A stretch of 57,642 bases of DNA from the NCBI GenBank assembly GCA_944325085.1, contig CALUYT010000004.1:1-57642 (forward strand), in the 5' to 3' direction. Positions within the stretch are counted from its first letter, which is position 1. The number at the start of each line of letters is the position of its first letter. Made by a program: the position numbers and the translations under genes. This document shows, in pieces, positions 3 to 50,878 of the stretch. The notes below the pieces were generated by a model that searched no databases, was not told the origin of the DNA, and saw nothing but the letters and a program-made list of their open reading frames with translations. Origin of the DNA: Candidatus Gastranaerophilales bacterium (lineage in GTDB: Bacteria > Cyanobacteriota > Vampirovibrionia > Gastranaerophilales > Gastranaerophilaceae).

Positions 3-830
3 GTTCCTAACCTCGTTGTATTCCTTAACAAATGCGATATGGTTGATGATCCGGAATTGTTAGAATTGGTTGAAATGGAAGTTAGAGAACTTCTTACTTC
101 TTATGAATTCGACGGTGACAACATTCCGTTCATCCACGGTTCTGCTTTGAAAGCTCTTGAAGCTGTTCAAGCTAATCCAAATGTACAACGCGGCCAAGAC
201 AAATGGGTTGACAAAATTTGGGAATTGATGGATGCAGTTGATACATACTTCCCAACTCCTGAACGTGATTTGGACAAACCATTCTTGATGCCTGTTGAAG
301 ACGTATTCTCTATCACTGGTCGTGGTACTGTTGCTACAGGCCGTGTAGAACGTGGTATTGTTAAAGTTGGTGATGAAGTTGAATTAGTTGGTATTAAACC
401 TACTAAGAAAACTACAGTTACTGGTGTTGAAATGTTCAGAAAATCTCTTGAACAAGGTCAAGCTGGTGACAACATTGGTGCTTTACTTCGTGGTGTTGAT
501 AAAACTGAAATCGAACGTGGTCAAGTTTTAGCAAAACCAGGATCTATTCACCCACACACTAAATTCACAGCTAACGTTTACGTATTAACAAAAGAAGAAG
601 GTGGACGTCACACTCCATTCTTCCCAGGATACAGACCTCAATTCTACATCAGAACAACTGACGTAACTGGTTCTATCCAATTCGAAGGTCAAATGGTAAT
701 GCCTGGTGATAACGTTGTTATGACAGTTGAATTGATTGCTCCTGTTGCTATCGAACAAGGTATGAGATTCGCTATCCGTGAAGGTGGTAGAACTGTTGGT
801 GCTGGTGTTGTTGATACTATCATCGAATAG
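3..830 (+). CDS. tuf: Elongation factor Tu, 3' part (5' end outside window)
   Basis: EF-Tu is the GTPase that delivers aminoacyl-tRNA to the ribosome in the cytoplasm. The reading frame is open from base 3 and begins inside the G domain: the NKCD nucleotide-specificity motif is encoded just before base 39, followed by [19 protein letters not shown] and the GSALKAL motif. Domain 2 ([14 protein letters not shown]) and domain 3 ([16 protein letters not shown]) follow, ending in the usual C-terminus. About 275 residues are present, so roughly the first 120 lie upstream. Codon use is more C-rich than the neighbouring genes, as expected for a highly expressed gene. A strong terminator follows directly. 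Confidence 0.98.
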
Positions 831-852: not shown

Positions 853-890
853 CAAAAAAAGACTTGATATTATTTATCAAGTCTTTTTTG
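853..890 (+). terminator. Rho-independent terminator of tuf
   Basis: Inverted repeat AAAAAGACTTGATA / TATCAAGTCTTTTT-type stem with a T-run, 22 bases after the tuf stop. The A-run on the other side means it could also work on the minus strand. Confidence 0.9.
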
Positions 891-963: not shown

Positions 964-1137
964 TTATGCTAATAATGCCTCTAAAATTTTAGCATTTGTT
1001 TGTGCCCGTCTGGAATTCAACAAATACTTTTCAACGCTCGCTTTAATTTCTTGAGCATCTGTATCTAAATACTTGACCTCACTATCAAGCATTTTTAAAT
1101 ACTCTTTAACAGTTACCATTTGATAATTATTTTTCAT
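964..1137 (-). CDS. Small MVTVKEY/NAKILEALLA-family protein (57 aa), copy 1
   Basis: Unrecognised 57-residue protein, one of four related small proteins in this cluster. It has an N-terminal MVTVKEYLKML segment, a central charged helix-like region (SVEKYLLNSRRAQ) and the C-terminal tail NAKILEALLA. It aligns almost end to end with the two 56-aa copies upstream, for example KEI/QEI, SVEKYLL and TNAKI. I start it at the ATG at 1137, preceded by GGGGA, rather than an in-frame TTG three codons upstream. It lies 45 bases after the RHH gene stop and has no promoter box of its own, so the two probably form an operon. No signal peptide or membrane segment is visible. Function unknown. Confidence 0.75.
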   Translation of the reverse strand: MKNNYQMVTVKEYLKMLDSEVKYLDTDAQEIKASVEKYLLNSRRAQTNAKILEALLA

Positions 1138-1182
1138 TTTCCCCAAAATCCTATAATATTTTTCCCAAAATCAATTATTCAA

Positions 1183-1371
1183 CTATCCCAAAAGGGCTTC
1201 CAAAATTTCTGCATTAGATACAGCTTTTTTACCATTTCTAACTTGTGATCTATACATATATGTTCTTAATGCTTCTCTGATTAACTCTGAACGAGTACGA
1301 TTTTCAGAATTTGCTACTGAATCGATTTCATCTAAAAATTTTTCAGGCATTGAAATTAAAACTCTGGCCAT
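1183..1371 (-). CDS. Ribbon-helix-helix (CopG/MetJ-type) DNA-binding protein with NAEILEALLG tail
   Basis: A 62-residue protein. Residues 1-45 (MARVLISMPEKFLDEID ... NRTRSELIREALRTYM) match the CopG/Arc ribbon-helix-helix pattern: a beta strand, then two helices with the SELIREAL second helix. Such proteins bind DNA as dimers and often repress their own promoter. The last ten residues, NAEILEALLG, are the same C-terminal tail carried by the neighbouring small proteins, which is not part of the usual RHH fold. The start has a clear AAAGGAG ribosome site. The gene has the conserved promoter box at 1405-1444. No toxin-like partner is recognisable, so an antitoxin role is not claimed; a local regulator of the cluster is the inference. 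Confidence 0.88.
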   Translation of the reverse strand: MARVLISMPEKFLDEIDSVANSENRTRSELIREALRTYMYRSQVRNGKKAVSNAEILEALLG

Positions 1372-1404
1372 ATTTTTCTCCTTTAATTTTTCCTTTGTAA
1401 TCCC

Positions 1405-1444
1405 CTTACTTATATATAAAGTATTTTTATCTGTAAAAATTGCC
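1405..1444 (-). promoter_or_regulatory. Conserved cluster promoter/operator, copy A (RHH gene)
   Basis: Read on the minus strand: GGCAA, 18 bases, then CTTTATATATAAGTAAG, followed by a G-run. The same two blocks with the same 18-base spacing occur upstream of three other minus-strand small genes here. The second block is an imperfect palindrome (CTTA...TAAAG) with a TATATA core that could be a -10 box and an RHH operator at once. Confidence 0.75.
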
Positions 1445-1500
1445 TATTTTATAAAGAAAAAGTATATATCCTTAATATAATTTTACATTTCGTAAAAGAT

Positions 1501-1537
1501 AAAAAAAGGAGCAACTACATCAAGTAATTACTCCTTT
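1501..1537 (-). terminator. Terminator of the 98-aa repeat protein gene
   Basis: Arms 1505-1518 and 1524-1537. On the minus strand the 14-bp stem forms with two G-U pairs and is followed by seven T; on the plus strand the same positions are C-A mismatches, so it is oriented for the minus-strand gene. Confidence 0.8.
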
Positions 1538-1563
1538 GTATTTTATATTGTTTATTTTTGTTA

Positions 1564-1860
1564 TTAAGCTAATAATGATTCTAAAAGTTGAGCATTAATT
1601 CTATCTTTACGAGATTTAGATAATGAAAGTTCGATTGATCTTTCAATTTCATGATCTTCTGCTGTTGAATATTTAACGTTTTCTAAAGCTTTGGCATATT
1701 CTCTTACAGTAATCATTGTAGAAGCTTGAGATAATGCACATTGTGTCCTCAAAGATTTTGCATAATCTGCAGCTGTAATCATAGTAGATCTTTGTTCATT
1801 TTCTTTTCTTAAAGATTCAACATATTCTTTAACTGTTATTAATTCTGAATGATTTTGCAT
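1564..1860 (-). CDS. Small-protein family member with three internal MITVxEYAKSL repeats (98 aa)
   Basis: Unrecognised protein related to the 56-57 aa neighbours but longer because the N-terminal motif is present three times: ELITVKEYVESL, TMITAADYAKSL and TMITVREYAKAL, spaced about 25-27 residues apart. The C-terminal part (EIERSIELSLSKSRKDRINAQLLESLLA) matches the family tail. The start is taken at the ATG at 1860, with GGGG about 8 bases upstream, instead of an in-frame TTG two codons earlier. It has its own promoter box and terminator. The repeat unit loosely resembles the first helix of MerR/excisionase-type HTH domains, but the second helix is missing, so no function is assigned. Confidence 0.75.
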   Translation of the reverse strand: MQNHSELITVKEYVESLRKENEQRSTMITAADYAKSLRTQCALSQASTMITVREYAKALENVKYSTAEDHEIERSIELSLSKSRKDRINAQLLESLLA

Positions 1861-1891
1861 ATCCAAACCCCTATTCTCTTAATATATTTCC

Positions 1892-1931
1892 CTTACATAT
1901 ATATAAAGGATTTTTTTTATAAAAATTTGCC
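1892..1931 (-). promoter_or_regulatory. Conserved cluster promoter/operator, copy B
   Basis: Minus strand: GGCAA, 18 bases, CTTTATATATATGTAAG, then GGAAA. Spacing is identical to the other copies. It lies about 30 bases before the start at 1860. Confidence 0.75.
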
Positions 1932-1984
1932 TCAAAATCACCATATATTAACATATTTTAACAGAAAAAACAATATATAATCAA

Positions 1985-2016
1985 AAGGACGGATTTAAAC
2001 TATTAAATCCGTCCTT
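1985..2016 (-). terminator. Terminator of small-protein copy 3
   Basis: Perfect 14-bp stem (AAGGACGGATTTAA, loop ACTA or its complement, TTAAATCCGTCCTT) 25 bases downstream of the minus-strand stop at 2042. Confidence 0.85.
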
Positions 2017-2041
2017 ACAAACTTTTTATAAAGTATTTTAA

Positions 2042-2212
2042 TTATGCTAATAAAGCTTCAACGATTTTTTCATTTGTTTTTGCTCTTTGGATACTTAACA
2101 AATATTTTTCAACACTTTTTTCAATTTCTTTTTCTTCAACTGATAAACATTTTACATTATCCAAGCTTTCAACATAATCTTTAACTGTTACCATTTCATA
2201 ATCATTTCTCAT
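2042..2212 (-). CDS. Small MVTVKDY/NEKIVEALLA-family protein (56 aa), copy 3
   Basis: A 56-residue protein: MRNDYEMVTVKDYVESLDN, then VKCLSVEEKEIEKSVEKYLL, then SIQRAKTNEKIVEALLA. It is nearly identical to the next copy (C for Y and E for A substitutions). The ribosome site is GGGGAATAAG, with the ATG at 2212. Promoter box upstream and a perfect terminator downstream make it a self-contained cassette. The predicted protein is mostly helical and highly charged, without signal peptide. Function unknown. Confidence 0.8.
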   Translation of the reverse strand: MRNDYEMVTVKDYVESLDNVKCLSVEEKEIEKSVEKYLLSIQRAKTNEKIVEALLA

Positions 2213-2248
2213 AATCTTATTCCCCTTTTTTATTTTATTCTCATTTCC

Positions 2249-2288
2249 CTTACATATATATAAAGTATTTTTTGATTGAAAAATTGCC
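2249..2288 (-). promoter_or_regulatory. Conserved cluster promoter/operator, copy C
   Basis: Minus strand: TAGGCAATTTTT ... ACTTTATATATATGTAAGGG. The 18-base spacing between GGCAA and CTTTATA is conserved, and the copy nearly matches copy D over the whole 50 bases. Confidence 0.78.
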
Positions 2289-2350
2289 TATTTTTTACTT
2301 AATAAGTATATAAAGTTTACATGTATTAATAAAAGAAACCTTCTAATCGA

Positions 2351-2382
2351 AAGGGCAGATTTAATAAATTAAATCTGCCCTT
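2351..2382 (-). terminator. Terminator of small-protein copy 4
   Basis: Perfect 14-bp stem AAGGGCAGATTTAA / TTAAATCTGCCCTT with a 4-base loop, 25 bases downstream of the minus-strand stop at 2408. Confidence 0.85.
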
Positions 2383-2407
2383 ATAAACCTTTCATATAGT
2401 TATTTCA

Positions 2408-2578
2408 TTATGCTAATAAAGCTTCAACTATTTTTGCGTTTGTTTTTGCTCTTTGGATACTTAACAAATATTTTTCAACACTTTTTTCAATTTCTTTTTC
2501 TTCAACAGATAAATATTTTACATTATCTAAGCTTTCAACATAATCTTTAACTGTTACCATTTCATAATCATTTCTCAT
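2408..2578 (-). CDS. Small MVTVKDY/NAKIVEALLA-family protein (56 aa), copy 4
   Basis: A 56-residue near-duplicate of the preceding cassette's protein, with MVTVKDYVESL near the N-terminus, SVEKYLLSIQRA in the middle and NAKIVEALLA at the end. GGGGAATAAG lies before the ATG at 2578. Conservation of the protein alongside diverged terminator stems suggests that the ORF is under selection. Function unknown. Confidence 0.8.
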   Translation of the reverse strand: MRNDYEMVTVKDYVESLDNVKYLSVEEKEIEKSVEKYLLSIQRAKTNAKIVEALLA

Positions 2579-2613
2579 AATCTTATTCCCCTTTTTATTT
2601 TATCTTTATTTCC

Positions 2614-2653
2614 CTTACATTTATATAAAGTATTTTCAGATTGAAAAATTGCC
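2614..2653 (-). promoter_or_regulatory. Conserved cluster promoter/operator, copy D
   Basis: Minus strand: TAGGCAATTTTT, then CTTTATATAAATGTAAGGG, with the same 18-base spacing. Confidence 0.75.
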
Positions 2654-2785: not shown

Positions 2786-3883
2786 ATGCTAAGAACTGGG
2801 ATTGTAGGATTACCAAATGTTGGGAAATCAACACTATTTAACGCACTGACAAATGCAAGGAACGCACAAAGTGCAAATTATCCGTTTTGTACAATTGAAC
2901 CTAATATTGGAGTTGTGGATGTGCCGGATGAAAGGCTTCCAATTTTAGCGAAATTATGTAAAACAGAAACAATTATACCTACAGCAATTGAATTTGTTGA
3001 TATTGCAGGTTTAGTAAAAGGTGCAAGTAAGGGAGAAGGACTTGGTAACCAATTCTTACAAAACATAAGAGAAGTTGATGCAATTATACAAGTTGTAAGA
3101 TGCTTTGACGATGAAAACACTATACACGTGGCAGGTAAAGTTGACCCATTAAGCGATATAGAAACAATTAACACAGAATTAGCACTTGCAGATATGGCAT
3201 CTATTGAAAGAAGACAAGCAAGAATCGCAAAAACCGTAAAAGGCGGAGATAAAGAAGCTGTTTTAGAAGACAAAGTGCTTACTAAATTAACAGATTTATT
3301 ATCAGATTGCACATTCATTGATATATCAAAACATTTTGAAGAAGATGAAATTCCTGTTGTAAAAAGATTAAATCTACTATCAACAAAACCTGTTATATAT
3401 TGTGCTAACGTATCAGAATTTGATTTAAAAGATGGAAATGAATACACCCAAAAAGTTGGCGAGTACGCAAAATCTCACGGCGCTGAAATGGTTGTAATCA
3501 CAGCTAAAATTGAAGAAGAATTAGCAGATTTAGGAAAAGAAGAAGCTGAAGAATACTTAAAAGAACTAGGTATTGAAGATAGCGGAATCAATAGAATGAT
3601 AAAATCAGTATATAATCTGCTAAAACTTAGAACATTTATAACTGCCGGAGAAAAAGAAGTTAGAGCTTGGACAATAACAGCCGGAACAAAAGCTCCACAA
3701 GCTGCCGGAGTTATTCATACCGACTTTGAAAAAGGATTTATTAGAGCTGAAATAACACCATATAAAGACTTTGTAGAACTTGGTTCTTATAATGCTTGCA
3801 AAGAAAAAGGTGTAACAAGACTTGAAGGCAAAGATTATATAGTCCAAGACGGAGATTTAGTTCATTTCAGATTTGCAGTATAA
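2786..3883 (+). CDS. ychF: Ribosome-binding ATPase YchF (OLA1 family)
   Basis: A 365-residue P-loop protein of the Obg-like YchF family, which binds ribosomes and prefers ATP. Residues 1-20 carry the P-loop GLPNVGKSTLFNAL. Switch/G3 is DIAGLVKGASKGEGLGNQFL, and the usual NKxD motif is replaced by NVSE, as is normal for YchF and explains loss of GTP specificity. The C-terminal TGS-like domain (FITAGEKEVRAWTI ... HTDFEKGFIRAEI ... GKDYIVQDGDLVHFRFAV) is complete. The family length is about 363, so the gene is intact. The ribosome site GAAGGGA precedes the ATG. It converges on the GH13 gene and shares its terminator. Confidence 0.97.
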   Translation: MLRTGIVGLPNVGKSTLFNALTNARNAQSANYPFCTIEPNIGVVDVPDERLPILAKLCKTETIIPTAIEFVDIAGLVKGASKGEGLGNQFLQNIREVDAIIQVVRCFDDENTIHVAGKVDPLSDIETINTELALADMASIERRQARIAKTVKGGDKEAVLEDKVLTKLTDLLSDCTFIDISKHFEEDEIPVVKRLNLLSTKPVIYCANVSEFDLKDGNEYTQKVGEYAKSHGAEMVVITAKIEEELADLGKEEAEEYLKELGIEDSGINRMIKSVYNLLKLRTFITAGEKEVRAWTITAGTKAPQAAGVIHTDFEKGFIRAEITPYKDFVELGSYNACKEKGVTRLEGKDYIVQDGDLVHFRFAV

Positions 3884-15695: not shown

Positions 15696-15734
15696 GCAAT
15701 TATTTAAAAAGTATATACTTTATATATATAATTA
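15696..15734 (+). promoter_or_regulatory. Fifth copy of the small-protein-cluster promoter type
   Basis: GCAATT, then CTTTATATATATAATTAG, with exactly 18 bases between GCAA and CTTTATA as in the four copies at 1.4-2.65 kb. Here it lies on the plus strand, upstream of the 408-aa gene. The second half (GTAAG) is changed to ATTAG. Confidence 0.6.
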
Positions 15735-15757
15735 GAGTTAAATAAGAGGACATGTAT

Positions 15758-16984
15758 ATGGGCATTTACGGATTTGGTAAAGCATTTAACACAAGATACG
15801 TCAACAGTGGGCAATTTTGTAAAATGCCACACGTAAACGTTAGACCGCAACCACGAACAGTAGTTTTTGGCGGTCATCCTTGCCATTCGAACACTAATAT
15901 AACCATAAACAATGGCCCTCAAGGTTTTTGGGGCTTTATGTCCGGCTTATTCAGCACAGGTTTTTTAGGCAACATTCTTGGAATGTTTGGATTGGGTGGA
16001 GGTATGAATATGGGTATGCCTACAATGGGTATGAGTCCATATAGTATGCTAAATGCACAAATGCAACCAAACACTCAACCACAACTTCAAGCAGGAGACA
16101 GATTAAACGACTTAAAAACATTATATCCAAATTGGAACATTGTATCAGATGGAAAAGGTCATTATGATGCAACATCAAAAGACGGAACAGTTCACCACGA
16201 AGGTAACTTTGATGAAATGTGCGAATTATTAAAGAATTCACAACCAGCTGAGAAAAATGGAGCACCAGAAGATGCAAATCCGACACCTGATCCAAACGAA
16301 GACGTAGCTGGAAAAGGTAACGATGGAGCTGCAAGACCAGCAGGTAACGATGGTGCAGCCGCAAGAAAAGGTGACGGTGAGGGTAATAGAGTAGCAAAAC
16401 AAAATAATACAAAAATAACAAACACTGAAAATGAAGAAATAGACAAAACAAAACCTATAAGCGTTAAAATTACTTTCTCAATACATACAACGAATTTTAA
16501 TGACGGTACAGCTACAGTAAAAATGCCAAATGGAGAAGTATTTAAAGCTTCAACCGGACCGTCTTTAACACATAACAATGCAATGGATGCTTTAGCAGAT
16601 GACATTAGACAACAATTGAAAAATGCAGGTTGGACAAATGTTACATTAGAAAACCCTAACTTTAAATTTAAACAAGGAGAACCAAAACCTGAAGTCGATG
16701 CAACAACAGGTGCAGCTCCAAAAGCAAAAACAAATTGGTCTGCAGCAGAAAAAGCAAAACCTCAAACTCTAAAAATCAGATTTGCAATACACACCCTTCA
16801 AGGAAAAAAAAAAACAAAAAGTGAAACAACACCAGAAGGAAAGACTCACACCGTAGAAACATCAATGTCTTGGACTCAACAAACTGCAATGGAAGATTTA
16901 TCAAAAAAAATGAAAGGTGTATTAAGTCAAAATGGTTGGACAAACGTAACACTAGAAAATACAAACTTCAACTGGTCAGATTAA
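15758..16984 (+). CDS. Unknown protein with Gly/Met-rich N-terminus and two C-terminal GWTNVTLEN repeats (408 aa)
   Basis: Not recognised. Residues ~60-110 are Gly/Met/Phe-rich (GFWGFMSGLFSTGFLGNILGMFGLGGG), possibly membrane-interacting. A low-complexity linker rich in Pro, Asp, Asn and Ala follows. The C-terminal ~170 residues hold two tandem domains: KPISVKITFSIHTT ... NNAMDALADDIRQQLKNAGWTNVTLENPNF and KPQTLKIRFAIHTL ... QTAMEDLSKKMKGVLSQNGWTNVTLENTNF. Each is a beta strand, helix, strand unit. The ATG at 15758 is chosen because AGAGGA lies 7 bases upstream; the ATG six bases earlier is too close to it. Shares a promoter type with the small-protein cluster. Confidence 0.78.
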   Translation: MGIYGFGKAFNTRYVNSGQFCKMPHVNVRPQPRTVVFGGHPCHSNTNITINNGPQGFWGFMSGLFSTGFLGNILGMFGLGGGMNMGMPTMGMSPYSMLNAQMQPNTQPQLQAGDRLNDLKTLYPNWNIVSDGKGHYDATSKDGTVHHEGNFDEMCELLKNSQPAEKNGAPEDANPTPDPNEDVAGKGNDGAARPAGNDGAAARKGDGEGNRVAKQNNTKITNTENEEIDKTKPISVKITFSIHTTNFNDGTATVKMPNGEVFKASTGPSLTHNNAMDALADDIRQQLKNAGWTNVTLENPNFKFKQGEPKPEVDATTGAAPKAKTNWSAAEKAKPQTLKIRFAIHTLQGKKKTKSETTPEGKTHTVETSMSWTQQTAMEDLSKKMKGVLSQNGWTNVTLENTNFNWSD

Positions 16985-44992: not shown

Positions 44993-45331
44993 ATGTATAG
45001 TAATTTTCCACAATATGATTTAGCATCAAGAATACAACATACAAAATTTGACAATGGTTTTGGTCAAATGCCAAGTGCTAGAATGTCACGAGTAGAAAGC
45101 CCGGAATCACCTAATTTTAAACAAGTATTTACAGGCTTGATGGAAAACCTTAATACAGAAATGAATGCTCCTGACAATTTATTAAAAGACGTCATGTCTG
45201 GAAATCAGAATGTAGATATCCATGACGTTATGACAGCAATGTCTAAATCAGAAATCAGTGTAAGCATAGCAACTCAAATGGTTGGTAAAGTTATTAATGC
45301 ATACGATAGAATTTCACAAATTTCAGTATAA
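44993..45331 (+). CDS. fliE: Flagellar hook-basal body protein FliE
   Basis: A 112-residue rod-adaptor protein between MS ring and rod. The C-terminal two thirds carry the FliE pattern: NFKQVFTGLMENLNTEMNAPDNLLKDVMSGNQNVDIHDVMTAMSKSEISVSIATQMVGKVINAYDRISQISV, in which DIHDVM, the A..K.. helix and the AYDRI end match. The first ~35 residues are Pro/Asn/Gly-rich. AGAGG lies before the ATG. First gene of the flagellar operon. Confidence 0.88.
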   Translation: MYSNFPQYDLASRIQHTKFDNGFGQMPSARMSRVESPESPNFKQVFTGLMENLNTEMNAPDNLLKDVMSGNQNVDIHDVMTAMSKSEISVSIATQMVGKVINAYDRISQISV

Positions 45332-45374
45332 AAATAACAAATAATAAACTTAAATACAGACAGCGGGAATAAAG

Positions 45375-47042
45375 ATGGATTTTAACAAAATACTAGAAAA
45401 CAAACCATTATTATATGGGGCAATCGGAGCGGTTGTTCTTATCGTTGCAGTTGTGGTTATATCAATAGCAATAGCAAGCAACAATGGAAATAAAGAACAA
45501 AATACAGTTGGCGGAGAACCTCTAAAAGCAAATGTTGACTTACTTACAACTGACAATTTGGGAAAAGCCTTAGAAATTCAAGCACTTTTGGCAAAACAAG
45601 GTATCACAGCTGAAAGATCACTTGACGGTACAAAATCAAAACTATTTTTAAATAAAAATAATTGTTCAACTCTAACTAAGAAATGTACAATAACAGATAG
45701 AGATAATGCATTAATAGCTATTGTACAAAGTGGTTTAGTTGACCAAAATGTAGGGTTAGAAATTTTTGATAAAGGTGATTTTACATCAACCAAAGAAGAT
45801 AAAAGAATACGTCTTGCAAGAGCAATGAATGGAGAATTAGCAAGACTAATAAAACAAATAAAACCTATACAAAATGCAACAGTATTTATCTCTATTCCTG
45901 AAAACAGTACAATGTTTGAAGACCAAAAGCCAAGAACCGCTACTGTACAGTTAGTTATGCCAATAGATGAAAAATTAGATCAATTAAAAGTAAAAGCTAT
46001 TACTAACTTAATTATCGGAAGTACTGGAATTTCAGCAGAAAACATCGCCATTACAGATACAAATGGTAATGTTTATCATAGTGTTATGAATGCAGAAGAT
46101 GAAATGCTTCAAAAGTTGGAAGAAAATGATAAATACATGCAACAAAAAATTTCAAAACAATTAGATAGATTAGTAGGTCCTGGAAATTATGTTGCAACAG
46201 TAAGTACATTCTTACGTCAAGCACCTATTGAAAAATTTGCAATAGAATATGACCCAACAAAAAAAGCATCAGTTTCAGAACAATCATTTAGAGAAGGTTT
46301 AGGTGACAGAACACAAGATCAATCCCAAGGTATAAATGCAGTTAGTACATATTTACCAAACGGATTACCTACAACAGGAACAGATTCAAGTCAATCAAGA
46401 AACTACTCAAGACAAGCAACTGAAACTCAATATGGTGTTACAAAAACACAAACTAATGAATATATAAAACCTGGTGTTGTTGAAGATATATCAATCGCTG
46501 TAACATTAGATAGAAATAACTTACCAACAGACACAACTCTTGAAGAATTAAAAGAACTAATTGCAAGAGCGGCAAGCCCTAAAGTTAGTGCAGCAAATGT
46601 ATCAATAGCATTTACAAATTCAACAGATCCATACTTAACACCGGAAAGACAACAAGCACTACCTGAAGTTGACGAATCCGGAAACCCTTGGTGGTTAGCA
46701 TTATTATTATCAGGTTTAGGTTTAATAATAATATTCAAAGCAATTTCAGCCAAGGTAAAACGTATAAGAGAAGAAAATGAATATGAAGTTGAAGCACTAA
46801 GACAAAAAGCTCTAGAACAAGAAAGACAATTAAATGATATCAATTCAAGAGCAAGTCAATTAACTCAACGACAATCAGAATTAGCTCAAGATTTGATAAA
46901 TCAACAACAAAGAGCTGCAATACCTCAATTTGACGAAAGTTTATTAACAGATTCAATTGATAATATTTCAAGTGAAATAACTGAAGATGCAGCTGAAAGA
47001 ATAAAAAGTTGGATAGAAGAAGGGGCTAACAAGGAAGGTTAA
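45375..47042 (+). CDS. fliF: Flagellar M-ring protein FliF
   Basis: MS-ring protein that anchors the basal body in the inner membrane. 555 residues: one N-terminal helix (LLYGAIGAVVLIVAVVVISIAI), a YscJ/FliF domain (RIRLARAMNGELARLIKQIKPIQNATVFISIPENSTMF), the FliF-C region (YVATVSTFLRQ ... TETQYGVTKTQTNEYIKPGVVEDISIAVTLD), a second helix (WWLALLLSGLGLIIIFKAI), and a C-terminal acidic tail ending ERIKSWIEEG for binding FliG. 43 bases after fliE. Confidence 0.95.
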   Translation: MDFNKILENKPLLYGAIGAVVLIVAVVVISIAIASNNGNKEQNTVGGEPLKANVDLLTTDNLGKALEIQALLAKQGITAERSLDGTKSKLFLNKNNCSTLTKKCTITDRDNALIAIVQSGLVDQNVGLEIFDKGDFTSTKEDKRIRLARAMNGELARLIKQIKPIQNATVFISIPENSTMFEDQKPRTATVQLVMPIDEKLDQLKVKAITNLIIGSTGISAENIAITDTNGNVYHSVMNAEDEMLQKLEENDKYMQQKISKQLDRLVGPGNYVATVSTFLRQAPIEKFAIEYDPTKKASVSEQSFREGLGDRTQDQSQGINAVSTYLPNGLPTTGTDSSQSRNYSRQATETQYGVTKTQTNEYIKPGVVEDISIAVTLDRNNLPTDTTLEELKELIARAASPKVSAANVSIAFTNSTDPYLTPERQQALPEVDESGNPWWLALLLSGLGLIIIFKAISAKVKRIREENEYEVEALRQKALEQERQLNDINSRASQLTQRQSELAQDLINQQQRAAIPQFDESLLTDSIDNISSEITEDAAERIKSWIEEGANKEG

Positions 47043-47045
47043 TAA

Positions 47046-48044
47046 ATGGCAACAAAGAATTTTGATTATGAAAATTTTGCACAAAATCTTGCAGCACAAG
47101 CACAAGAACTTGTACCTCAAGATTTTAACGATAATCAAAAACAATATGTAATAAATACCCTAGGTAACTTTGCATTATTATCAGGAAAAGCCTTAGCAGA
47201 AGATCCTAACTTAAATTTTAATGAAGAACAATCAATAACTATCACTCAAATTATAGCAGAGTGGTCATTCCACAAATCAGTTGACGTTATTAGATCAGGT
47301 ATTCCACAACAATATTGGGATCCTATAATGCAAAAAATAGCATATACAATATTCGAAATTGCAAAACAAACATTTTCACAAGGATTACCACATGATAAAA
47401 TTCTTGAATTAATAGAACACCATGTAAAGAAAAGTTATCTTGAAGCAATTACCGAATTAAAAAATAAAGGTGCAATTGATGAAGGTTTAATGGAATATGC
47501 CGCATCACAATCCAATATGGATAGAATGGCACAAGAAATGCAAGCTCAACAAGGAGGGGCAGCACCTCAAGATAATAGCTCCGCAGCAAACATGCCTGGT
47601 CAATCAGCAGGTCCAATAGATTTTCCAAAAGTTGACTCTAAAGTTCTAAAATTAGCAACTGTAGCAATGTTATTTAAGAAAATGAATCAAGATAAAGTTC
47701 AAGCAATACTTGATAAATTTGGACCTGAAGATGCACAAACAGTTATAAAATTTATGAGAGTTCCAGATTTAGCAGAAAGAGTTGGAGCTCAAAATGCGCT
47801 AAGATGTTTAAAAGAAATAAAAACAACACTACCTAAAAACACAGATATAACACCTCATAAAATAATATTAAGAATAAAAAGATTTACATCAAAATACACA
47901 AATAAAGAATTAGATACAATGTTGATAAGAGAACGTATGGGTGTAAAAAGGCTTGTATTTAACGCAATGGAAGATAAATATTATGATAAAATGCCCCCAA
48001 AAGTTGCAAGCATTGTTGCCACACACCTACTAGATAGTGTATAA
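47046..48044 (+). CDS. Divergent protein in the FliG position (flagellar switch candidate)
   Basis: A 332-residue, mostly helical protein, the normal length of FliG (about 330), between fliF and fliH where fliG is usually found. The clearest FliG-like part is near the C-terminal third: LKLATVAMLFKKMNQDKVQAILDKFGPEDAQTVIKFMRVPDL, with KEIKTTLP after it. I cannot see the FliG EHPQ motif or a standard C-terminal charged ridge. A low-complexity linker rich in Gln, Ala, Asn and Ser lies near residue 160-185. AAGGAAGG precedes the ATG; 3 bases after fliF. A fast-diverged FliG is the best guess; other basal-body proteins cannot be excluded. Confidence 0.6.
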   Translation: MATKNFDYENFAQNLAAQAQELVPQDFNDNQKQYVINTLGNFALLSGKALAEDPNLNFNEEQSITITQIIAEWSFHKSVDVIRSGIPQQYWDPIMQKIAYTIFEIAKQTFSQGLPHDKILELIEHHVKKSYLEAITELKNKGAIDEGLMEYAASQSNMDRMAQEMQAQQGGAAPQDNSSAANMPGQSAGPIDFPKVDSKVLKLATVAMLFKKMNQDKVQAILDKFGPEDAQTVIKFMRVPDLAERVGAQNALRCLKEIKTTLPKNTDITPHKIILRIKRFTSKYTNKELDTMLIRERMGVKRLVFNAMEDKYYDKMPPKVASIVATHLLDSV

Positions 48045-48056
48045 TAATGTTATATC

Positions 48057-48767
48057 ATGATTATAAAAAACAAAAATAAAAAACAGCCAGAGGGAGAAAA
48101 TAAACAAACAGTCTCTGAAAAGGACGAAAATATAATCGAATCTTCAGAACAAACGGAAAAAGATCTCGATATATTTGACTTGGATAATATTGACTTTAAA
48201 CAAAGGCAAGAACGTAGAAAAGGGGATAGAAGAAGAGGTTTTAGACGTATAGACGACAGAAATCTTATCTCCAGAGCAAAAGAAGAAGCCAATGCAATAA
48301 AAGAAGCTGCAGCAAAAGAAGGTTACAGTGAAGGTCTTCAAGATGCCAAAGATGATATTGAAAAAGTAAAAGATGCTATAAGAGTATTTTACAACGCAAA
48401 GCAAGAAGTTTATGACAATATAGCACCTGACATTTTGGAAATAGGCATTGAAATAGCTAAAAAAATCATTAAAAAAGAAATAGCAGAAGATTCATCAATA
48501 TTGCTAGAAAATATAAAAAATATTTTAAAAGGCTTATCAAAAGAAGAAACAAAAATAACTCTGCGAGTTCATCCATCCCAAGTTGCAATGATAAAACAAG
48601 ATATACCAGAAGTTACAACCAATCTGGGGATAGAAGCGAAAATATTAATAATTCCAGATGATACAATAATGGAAGGCGGATGTGTGCTTACAACAACTAA
48701 TGGTGTAATAGATGCAACAATAGAATCACAACTGGCAATAATTAGTGAGGTATTAAAAGAAATTTAA
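48057..48767 (+). CDS. fliH: Flagellar assembly protein FliH
   Basis: A 236-residue cytoplasmic regulator of the export ATPase FliI. The N-terminal part is charged and disordered with a basic cluster (RKGDRRRGFRR). The helical part AKEEANAIKEAAAKEGYSEGLQDAKDDIEKV and the C-terminal domain (IGIEIAKKIIKKEI, ITLRVHPSQVAMIKQD, DDTIMEGGCVLTTTNGVIDATIESQL) match FliH/YscL. It overlaps the flhA start by one base. No ribosome site is seen before the ATG at 48057. No FliI gene follows. Confidence 0.88.
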   Translation: MIIKNKNKKQPEGENKQTVSEKDENIIESSEQTEKDLDIFDLDNIDFKQRQERRKGDRRRGFRRIDDRNLISRAKEEANAIKEAAAKEGYSEGLQDAKDDIEKVKDAIRVFYNAKQEVYDNIAPDILEIGIEIAKKIIKKEIAEDSSILLENIKNILKGLSKEETKITLRVHPSQVAMIKQDIPEVTTNLGIEAKILIIPDDTIMEGGCVLTTTNGVIDATIESQLAIISEVLKEI

Positions 48768-50878
48768 TGGCAGCACCAGAAGGAAATAATGCAAATCCAA
48801 TAAGTGAAATATTTATGGCATTGTTCGTATTGGCATTGCTGATTATTTTGCTGGTAGAACTTCCTAACTGGGTTATCAACTGCTGTATTTGTTTAAATAT
48901 AGCATTAGGTATTGTATTATTAATGTTTGCATTATACGTGCAAAAAACTTTGGAATTATCATCATTTCCATCAATTATTCTTGTTGGTACAATGTTTAGA
49001 TTGGTATTATCAATTGCATCTACTCGTTTAATTCTAGCAAAAGGAGAAGCGGGAGAAGTTATTCACGCATTTGGAACATTCGTTACCGGTGGTAATATGA
49101 TTGTAGGTGGTGTAATATTCTTAATCATCACAGTCGTTCAGTTTATGGTTATTACAAAGGGTGCTGAACGTATCGCCGAAGTTTCTGCACGTTTTGCATT
49201 GGATGCGATGCCAGGTAAACAAATGACCATTGACGCCGATTTTAACGCAGGATTAATCTCTCCTGAAGAAGCGACAAAAAAACGTGAAGACTTATCCAGA
49301 GAATCAAACTTAATGGGTTCAATGGATGGTGCTATGAAATTCGTAAAAGGTGATACTATTGCTGGTATCATTATTGTAATAATTAACATTGTAGGTGGCT
49401 TGTGCGTAGGTTGTTTGATGAACCAAATGCCAATCGCCGATGCTGTATCTAAATATACAGTATTAACAATCGGTGATGGTTTAGCATCACAAGTTCCATC
49501 ATTACTGATGTCTATTGCTGCAGGTATATTTATGACTCGTGCTTCTGCAGCTAGTCCTTCTTTGGGTTCTGATGTTACATCACAAATTACAAGTAAACCA
49601 TATGCTTTATTTTTTGCAGCAGCATTTTTAATGCTATTAGCAATTTCCGGACATACTTGGTTCTGGCAAGGAACAGGACTTCCTCCTTTACCATTTTTTA
49701 TAATGTCAGTGGGTTTATTTATTGCAGGTTTCCAAGTTTTAATCAATGCCGATGTTCAATCACAATTAGGACAATTAGAAAATGTTCGTCAAAATATGCA
49801 AGATCTTGTTAACCCAAATAGAATGTACGAACGTTTAGGTGTTGATATTTTAAGTCTGCAAGTTGGCTCAAACTTGTTGGTAATTGCAGACCCTGACCAA
49901 GAAGGTCAACTTTTAGCAAAAATAGCAGCTTTACGTCAAAGAGTTACAGATGAACTCGGATATATTTTGCCAAATATAAGAATTATGGATTCATCTGCTC
50001 TTGACGCTAATGAATATATGATATCAATTCGTGGTAATACTGTAGCCACAGGATACGTTTATCCTGGGAAATTTATGGTAATTGCAGACCAATGGGATTC
50101 TATGAAAAAAGAAGTTCCAGAAGATGCCATTATTGGTATTGACCCTACATATCAAACTCAAGCTTATTGGATAAGCCAAGAAGATGCAAAATCTGCAAGA
50201 CTTGTTACTGCAGTAGATGCTACAGATGTTATTGTTACTCACTTGCAAGAATGTGTAAGAAAACATGTTGATGAGGTTATGACAAAAACTGACGTACTTA
50301 AACTTATGGAACTTGTACGTTCACAAGACCCTACACTTGTTAATGACCTTGTACCTACAATCATTTCAACAAGTGACTTACGTAAAATATTTGTTAACTT
50401 AATTAGAGAAAAAGTTTCTATAAAAGATATTATATTTGTATTTGAAAGGCTTTGTGATTACGCAAGATTCTCAAAAGAACCAGATATCTTATCTGAGCGT
50501 TTAAGAGCCGCTCTAGGACGACAAATATGTTTATCTAATGTTCAAGATGATAAAGTTTTATATGCTTTAACACTATCACCTGAATGGGAAAAAACTCTAG
50601 ATGACAGCTGTCAAAGAACAGAGTTAGGTACAATGTTCTTACTAAATCCTGTACAAGTTCAAGAATTAATTGAAACAACAGCAACTACTTTATTAAGAGC
50701 ACACCAAACTTGTGGAAGACAACCTGTAATATTGTGTTCTCCAAGAATAAGATTGCCACTATATCAATTATTAGAACGACACATTCCAACAGTTGTTGTA
50801 ATTTCTTATTCCGAACTTATTACAGATATTAAAGTTGAAGCTATTGATACTATAGGTGAATCTTATATTACAGACTAA
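48767..50878 (+). CDS. flhA: Flagellar export protein FlhA (FHIPEP family)
   Basis: Inner-membrane core of the flagellar type III export gate. 703 residues: about eight membrane helices in the first 330, including the FHIPEP signature region (RLVLSIASTRLILAKG, GGNMIVGGVIFLIITVVQFMVITKGAERIAEVSARFALDAMPGKQMTIDADFNAGLISPEEA) and KGDTIAGIIIVIINIVGG, then a cytoplasmic ~370-residue domain ending PVILCSPRIRLPLYQLLERHIPTVVVISYSEL. The family also includes non-flagellar SctV; with fliE, fliF and fliH upstream the flagellar role is favoured. Start codon overlaps the fliH stop. Confidence 0.95.
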   Translation: MAAPEGNNANPISEIFMALFVLALLIILLVELPNWVINCCICLNIALGIVLLMFALYVQKTLELSSFPSIILVGTMFRLVLSIASTRLILAKGEAGEVIHAFGTFVTGGNMIVGGVIFLIITVVQFMVITKGAERIAEVSARFALDAMPGKQMTIDADFNAGLISPEEATKKREDLSRESNLMGSMDGAMKFVKGDTIAGIIIVIINIVGGLCVGCLMNQMPIADAVSKYTVLTIGDGLASQVPSLLMSIAAGIFMTRASAASPSLGSDVTSQITSKPYALFFAAAFLMLLAISGHTWFWQGTGLPPLPFFIMSVGLFIAGFQVLINADVQSQLGQLENVRQNMQDLVNPNRMYERLGVDILSLQVGSNLLVIADPDQEGQLLAKIAALRQRVTDELGYILPNIRIMDSSALDANEYMISIRGNTVATGYVYPGKFMVIADQWDSMKKEVPEDAIIGIDPTYQTQAYWISQEDAKSARLVTAVDATDVIVTHLQECVRKHVDEVMTKTDVLKLMELVRSQDPTLVNDLVPTIISTSDLRKIFVNLIREKVSIKDIIFVFERLCDYARFSKEPDILSERLRAALGRQICLSNVQDDKVLYALTLSPEWEKTLDDSCQRTELGTMFLLNPVQVQELIETTATTLLRAHQTCGRQPVILCSPRIRLPLYQLLERHIPTVVVISYSELITDIKVEAIDTIGESYITD

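Follow-up and report, generated by a model that had tools for sequence, protein, structure and literature searches.

Gene content of the locus

The window, a stretch of 57,642 nucleotides from a Candidatus Gastranaerophilales bacterium, lies on a contig of a 1.89-Mb genome in 65 contigs (G000; assembly approximately 96% complete), and this contig breaks off inside a tuf gene (39-830). Between tuf and ychF (2786-3883) lie five small genes on the minus strand, encoding an RHH protein, its downstream partner, a 98-aa protein and two 56-aa proteins (Table 1). A preliminary description of the locus had proposed small-protein cassettes with a resident RHH regulator, and this picture holds: the genes are genuine, occur in several copies and share promoters. 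One small-protein gene follows the RHH gene, as that description stated, with 45 nt between the RHH stop codon and its ORF. The 98-aa protein would comprise 100 aa if translation started at the TTG at 1866. The N-terminal motif and C-terminal tail reported for the small proteins were likewise found, as [MI]TVKxY and NAxIxEALLA-like ends, respectively. The preliminary description contained neither the occurrence of this tail on the RHH protein nor the apparent RHH origin of the partner, the conserved linkage to tuf or the wider set of genes with the same promoter.

Table 1. Features of the cassette locus and promoter-linked genes. Positions refer to the window unless another contig is named.
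Feature	Position	Strand	Basis
RHH (CopG-type) regulator, 62 aa, tail NAEILEALLG	1183-1371	-	Pfam RHH_1 match, order-wide conservation
Downstream partner microprotein, 57 aa	964-1137	-	ORF, homologues
98-aa protein, three [MI]TVxEY N-motif copies and common tail	1564-1860	-	ORF, motif comparison
Solo partner copy 1, 56 aa	2042-2212	-	ORF, homologues, copy comparison
Solo partner copy 2, 56 aa	2408-2578	-	ORF, homologues, copy comparison
Promoter core, RHH-partner operon	1415-1443	-	Exact match
Promoter core, 98-aa gene	1902-1930	-	2 mismatches
Promoter core, solo copy 1	2259-2287	-	Exact match
Promoter core, solo copy 2	2624-2652	-	Exact match
Upstream repeat box of RHH promoter, ATGTAAAATTATATTAAG	1471-1495	-	Inspection and consensus; type conserved order-wide
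Promoter core ahead of 410-aa lineage-specific ORF (15752-16984)	15696-15724	+	1 mismatch
Terminator hairpin, 98-aa gene	1505-1537	-	Terminator scan
Terminator hairpin, solo copy 1	1985-2016	-	Terminator scan
Hairpin behind solo copy 2	2351-2382	-	Weak T-run, below scan call
Hairpin between tuf and RHH-partner operon, usable from both sides	~854-889	.	Inspection
ADP-ribosyltransferase-exoenzyme-like gene with promoter site	L176 1555-2394; G000:C42:22964-23398		Pfam PF03496

The small ORFs code for protein. Differences at codon positions 1, 2 and 3 were 0.38, 0.25 and 0.55 for the partners and 0.31, 0.21 and 0.42 for the solo copies, a bias towards the third position typical of coding sequence. 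The RHH gene was far more constant than the partners (0.18, 0.06 and 0.42, respectively). A search for the 56-aa protein in related genomes, which the preliminary description had proposed, recovered homologues in 33 of the 36 genomes of the genus (single query, E <= 0.01), while none was found at this threshold in 23 searched genomes outside the genus (22 from the same order and one from the same class). A family profile reached other genera weakly, where its better matches were partners of classes 2 and 1 (see below); weak profile matches within proteins of 580-760 aa from other genera were inspected and dropped as probable chance similarities. The family, which the preliminary description had not recognised, is real, and its members matched nothing in Pfam, NCBIfam or PADLOC.

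A promoter shared beyond the cassettes

The promoter core has the form GCAATTTTT-N11-TACTTTATA. It had been described as a box private to each cassette; it does stand ahead of the cassettes, but exact sites numbered 8 in the genome itself and 182 in 31 genomes of the genus (the sum of per-genome counts), against none in the reversed control and none in the control, respectively. Of 50 genomes from the order, 45 contained a related form ending CTTTATATA (0 in the control). When three mismatches were allowed, the excess was reduced (71 sites versus 34 in the control), so that only close sites are to be trusted. A scan with the sigma-70 consensus gave no excess above shuffled sequences. Candidate readers of the core include sigma factors, response regulators and the RHH protein itself.

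Conservation of the RHH-partner pair across the order

The 62-aa protein matched the Pfam family RHH_1 (PF01402) with 34.8 bits, above the cut-off of 20.5. Genome contigs were searched for this RHH protein, and the best 80 loci were examined; named records among them were mostly MAGs of Gastranaerophilales, Melainabacteria or 'Cyanobacteria', and the remainder were titled uncultured bacterium, with two under other group names. A partner-like ORF of 53-75 aa, in a few cases with a longer, upstream-extended frame, lay directly downstream of the RHH gene in all of these 80 loci, and the EF-Tu gene (tuf) was convergent with the pair in 62; several of the other 18 loci are contig ends. The promoter core preceded the RHH gene in nearly all 80, with a TTAAG/GTAA-type repeat box further upstream. 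We propose that the cluster forms a regulatory module that Gastranaerophilales have inherited vertically. The combination of RHH protein, partner and shared promoter looks like a regulatory circuit that has apparently gone unreported, and no paper in the literature library searched names Gastranaerophilales together with RHH proteins.

An RHH gene placed first in a two-gene operon is also the order expected if the RHH protein were the antitoxin of a type II toxin-antitoxin system with the small protein as a novel, very small toxin and the solo copies as orphan toxins or decoys; the closest solved RHH protein by sequence is indeed an antitoxin, EndoAI (PDB 4me7; E 2.9e-7, residues 5-45). We consider this decidedly improbable: Pfam, NCBIfam and PADLOC gave the partner no match to a toxin family, the partner is itself related to the RHH protein, the position beside tuf is fixed across the order, and the solo copies have no adjoining RHH gene. 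Viral contigs contained no partner and a single distant RHH gene, which likewise speaks against a toxin-antitoxin module; a phage origin was considered too and is disfavoured.

The genome contains a second RHH-partner pair, with a class 1 partner, adjoining its second tuf gene (C17); each of the two tuf genes is convergent with a pair whose partner class differs (L086; window 39-830). Besides the two pairs there are two further RHH genes, one of which lies immediately ahead of panD (aspartate decarboxylase) and has no partner ORF (L087 944-1683). A partner-like ORF of 55 aa from another genus of the family follows the promoter and apparently precedes the RHH gene (L252, near 1500-1750), so partners can occupy the upstream side. 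A 144-kb IMG/VR contig encodes an RHH protein 62% identical to that of the window, with neither tail nor partner (L215 3001-3201).

Partner classes and their relation to RHH proteins

The 80 partners were sorted, partly by eye, into three classes with approximately 49, 10 and 21 members, respectively. Class 1 partners (YIMSSLDEYFEILDKENKKRSELVAKSLVKYL) retain the second RHH helix behind a new N-terminal motif, class 2 partners combine the N-motif with a whole RHH domain and the tail, and class 3, the form of the window's own genus, retains the RHH C-terminal tail (NAKILEALLA versus NAEILEALLG). Both class 1 and class 2 are related to RHH proteins. Class 2 aligned with the RHH protein over residues 21-73 (97%, hhalign), and the class 1 core around helix B scored z 8.2 against shuffles (81%, hhalign). 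Class 3 was linked to class 2 at 98% and to class 1 at 94% (hhalign), whereas the own-genus protein stripped of its tail showed no significant similarity to RHH (z 0.7 against shuffles); its descent accordingly rests on the intermediates and the tail. A 67-aa partner with a shortened RHH region was found in L214. At the sequence level, an origin as RHH-derived microproteins is well supported for class 2, has good support for class 1 and is probable for class 3. The tail is common to the RHH protein and partners of classes 2 and 3; class 1 partners do not carry it, so it cannot be a universal interface.

AlphaFold models of the own-genus and class 1 partners were helical with no ribbon (pLDDT 81 and 77), and in both the DNA-contacting ribbon appears to have been lost. 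The RHH_1 profile matched none of the own-genus, class 1 or class 2 partners, a fold search with the 56-aa model returned neither RHH proteins nor another credible match, and a PDB sequence search with the partner profiles gave nothing significant, the class 2 profile showing weak similarity to YiiF and EndoAI (E 0.07-0.11). These models bear on whether the partner could instead be a co-repressor or specificity subunit whose mixed complex binds DNA better or elsewhere, the solo copies strengthening or redirecting regulation. The conserved pairing, the tail and the promoter data would fit such a role equally, and the whole RHH domain of class 2 partners could contact DNA; the apparent absence of a ribbon, with no strand in the models, from the class 1 and own-genus partners nevertheless makes it unlikely in our estimate.

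Duplication and terminators of the solo cassettes

The two solo cassettes repeat with a spacing of 366 nt, as previously described, although their supposed freshness is doubtful. The ORFs are 96.5% identical and the segments from the CAATTTTT element to the ATG 91%, whereas the 75-nt upstream boxes and the 3' flanks share 64% and 73%, respectively. The species G017 likewise carries two copies with the same pattern, its ORF pair having been homogenised separately (97.1%), and solo-copy ORFs are 91-92% identical between the two species. High ORF identity, diverged flanks and a separate pair in G017 fit better with an older duplication, probably homogenised by gene conversion; selection on the ORFs could contribute to the similarity of the copies.

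Of the private terminators attributed to the cassettes, those of the 98-aa gene and solo copy 1 passed a terminator scan (2 hairpins found versus 0.4 expected), while the one behind solo copy 2 was not called. The RHH-partner operon apparently ends, by inspection, at the hairpin that it has in common with the convergent tuf. The stems AAGGACGGATTTAA..TTAAATCCGTCCTT and AAGGGCAGATTTAA..TTAAATCTGCCCTT differ at two positions, at each of which both arms of the stem have changed and still pair. The divergence with retained pairing noted earlier is therefore present. Selection on the stems could plausibly explain it, although the evidence from two compensated positions is thin, and hairpin-templated correction could produce such compensation as well.

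Promoter-linked genes and a flagellar-type apparatus

Promoter sites outside the cassettes stand ahead of recurring, lineage-specific protein families. One family of 80-94 aa (…RMRFNNSxDPIYYVFD…) lies behind such sites in five genomes of the genus, among them G000 by inspection, as well as in two others. The only ADP-ribosyltransferase-exoenzyme-like gene of G000 (PF03496, just above the cut-off) is preceded by an exact copy of the core, and a gene for a calpain-like protein by a site with one mismatch. Seven of ten promoter-linked proteins had no Pfam match at E <= 0.01. The window also encodes FliE (Pfam) and, by inspection, FliF-, FliG-, FliH- and FlhA-like proteins (45375-50878) within a region of flagellar-type basal-body genes (44993-50878); flagellin_N was not detected in the approximately 96% complete assembly, and the apparatus is apparently a flagellar-type exporter without flagellin.

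The promoter gene set may be linked to export. The small proteins might then serve this gene set in an export-related role, whether as effectors, as chaperones or as secreted feedback proteins, instead of regulating the RHH protein; the ADP-ribosyltransferase-like, calpain-like and other lineage-specific proteins behind the promoter core, the flagellar-type genes and the repetition of the N-motif within 98-aa forms would allow this. Neither effectors nor chaperones would be expected to have an RHH-derived helix and tail or to be constantly paired with an RHH gene, and this role is in our judgement rather improbable. A broader and speculative possibility, which we doubt, places the RHH protein and its RHH-derived antagonists at the regulatory centre of a hitherto undescribed secretion programme of gut Gastranaerophilales. 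They would control, or receive input from, a set of lineage-specific and partly effector-like genes present across the order under this promoter, whose products the flagellin-less apparatus may export.

Proposed mechanism and comparison with known systems

The reading that we prefer, with about an even chance of being correct, is that the partner antagonises the RHH protein through mixed oligomers, by analogy with SinI and SinR. The 62-aa protein would be a DNA-binding regulator, and the partner would descend from an RHH protein, with the ribbon lost or remodelled and the second helix kept, together with the tail in the window's genus. Pairing through the common helix and tail would yield mixed oligomers that bind DNA poorly, making the partner a built-in antagonist as SinI is of SinR, and the operon would be autoregulated. 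In this genus, copies of the partner gene would have given rise to the solo cassettes, each with the same promoter, and partner dose would consequently track the activity of the wider promoter set.

We favour antagonism because of the RHH_1 match, the downstream partner in all of the best 80 loci and the 62 tuf-convergent loci, the relatedness of the partner classes to RHH and the common tail, the single promoter on the RHH operon and the solo and 98-aa cassettes, and the ribbon-less partner models. The lack of significant RHH similarity in class 3 once its tail is removed, the absence of the tail from class 1 and the fold search without an RHH match count against it. Among the roles guessed in the preliminary description (signal, antagonist or stress effector), the evidence favours the antagonist; a signal is unsupported, and no signal peptide was apparent by eye in the small proteins.

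Most Gastranaerophilales, gut-dwelling relatives of cyanobacteria, are uncultured, and little is known about their regulation. If the mechanism is correct, the graded partners, from a full RHH domain to helix and tail, would represent a natural series of a transcription factor shrinking into an inhibitor. A list of genes that are probably regulated together can be read directly from the shared promoter sites.

By its score, the 62-aa protein belongs to the RHH_1/CopG family, from which it differs in carrying the tail common to the small proteins; the latter gave no match to the family. The RHH protein is similar in sequence to the MazE-type antitoxin EndoAI, but its partner is not a MazF-type toxin. 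In Bacillus subtilis, SinI is a small protein that has a helical interaction region in common with the repressor encoded by the adjacent gene, and heterodimer formation removes DNA binding by SinR (PMC3163267). Here, too, a small protein related to the interaction region of a regulator is encoded beside it, a likeness that is weaker for class 3, where it comes from the intermediates and tail only. SinR is a helix-turn-helix protein, whereas the present regulator is an RHH protein, and no sequence relation is claimed; in contrast to SinI, the solo partner copies share their promoter with many other genes, and the complex is a predicted one.
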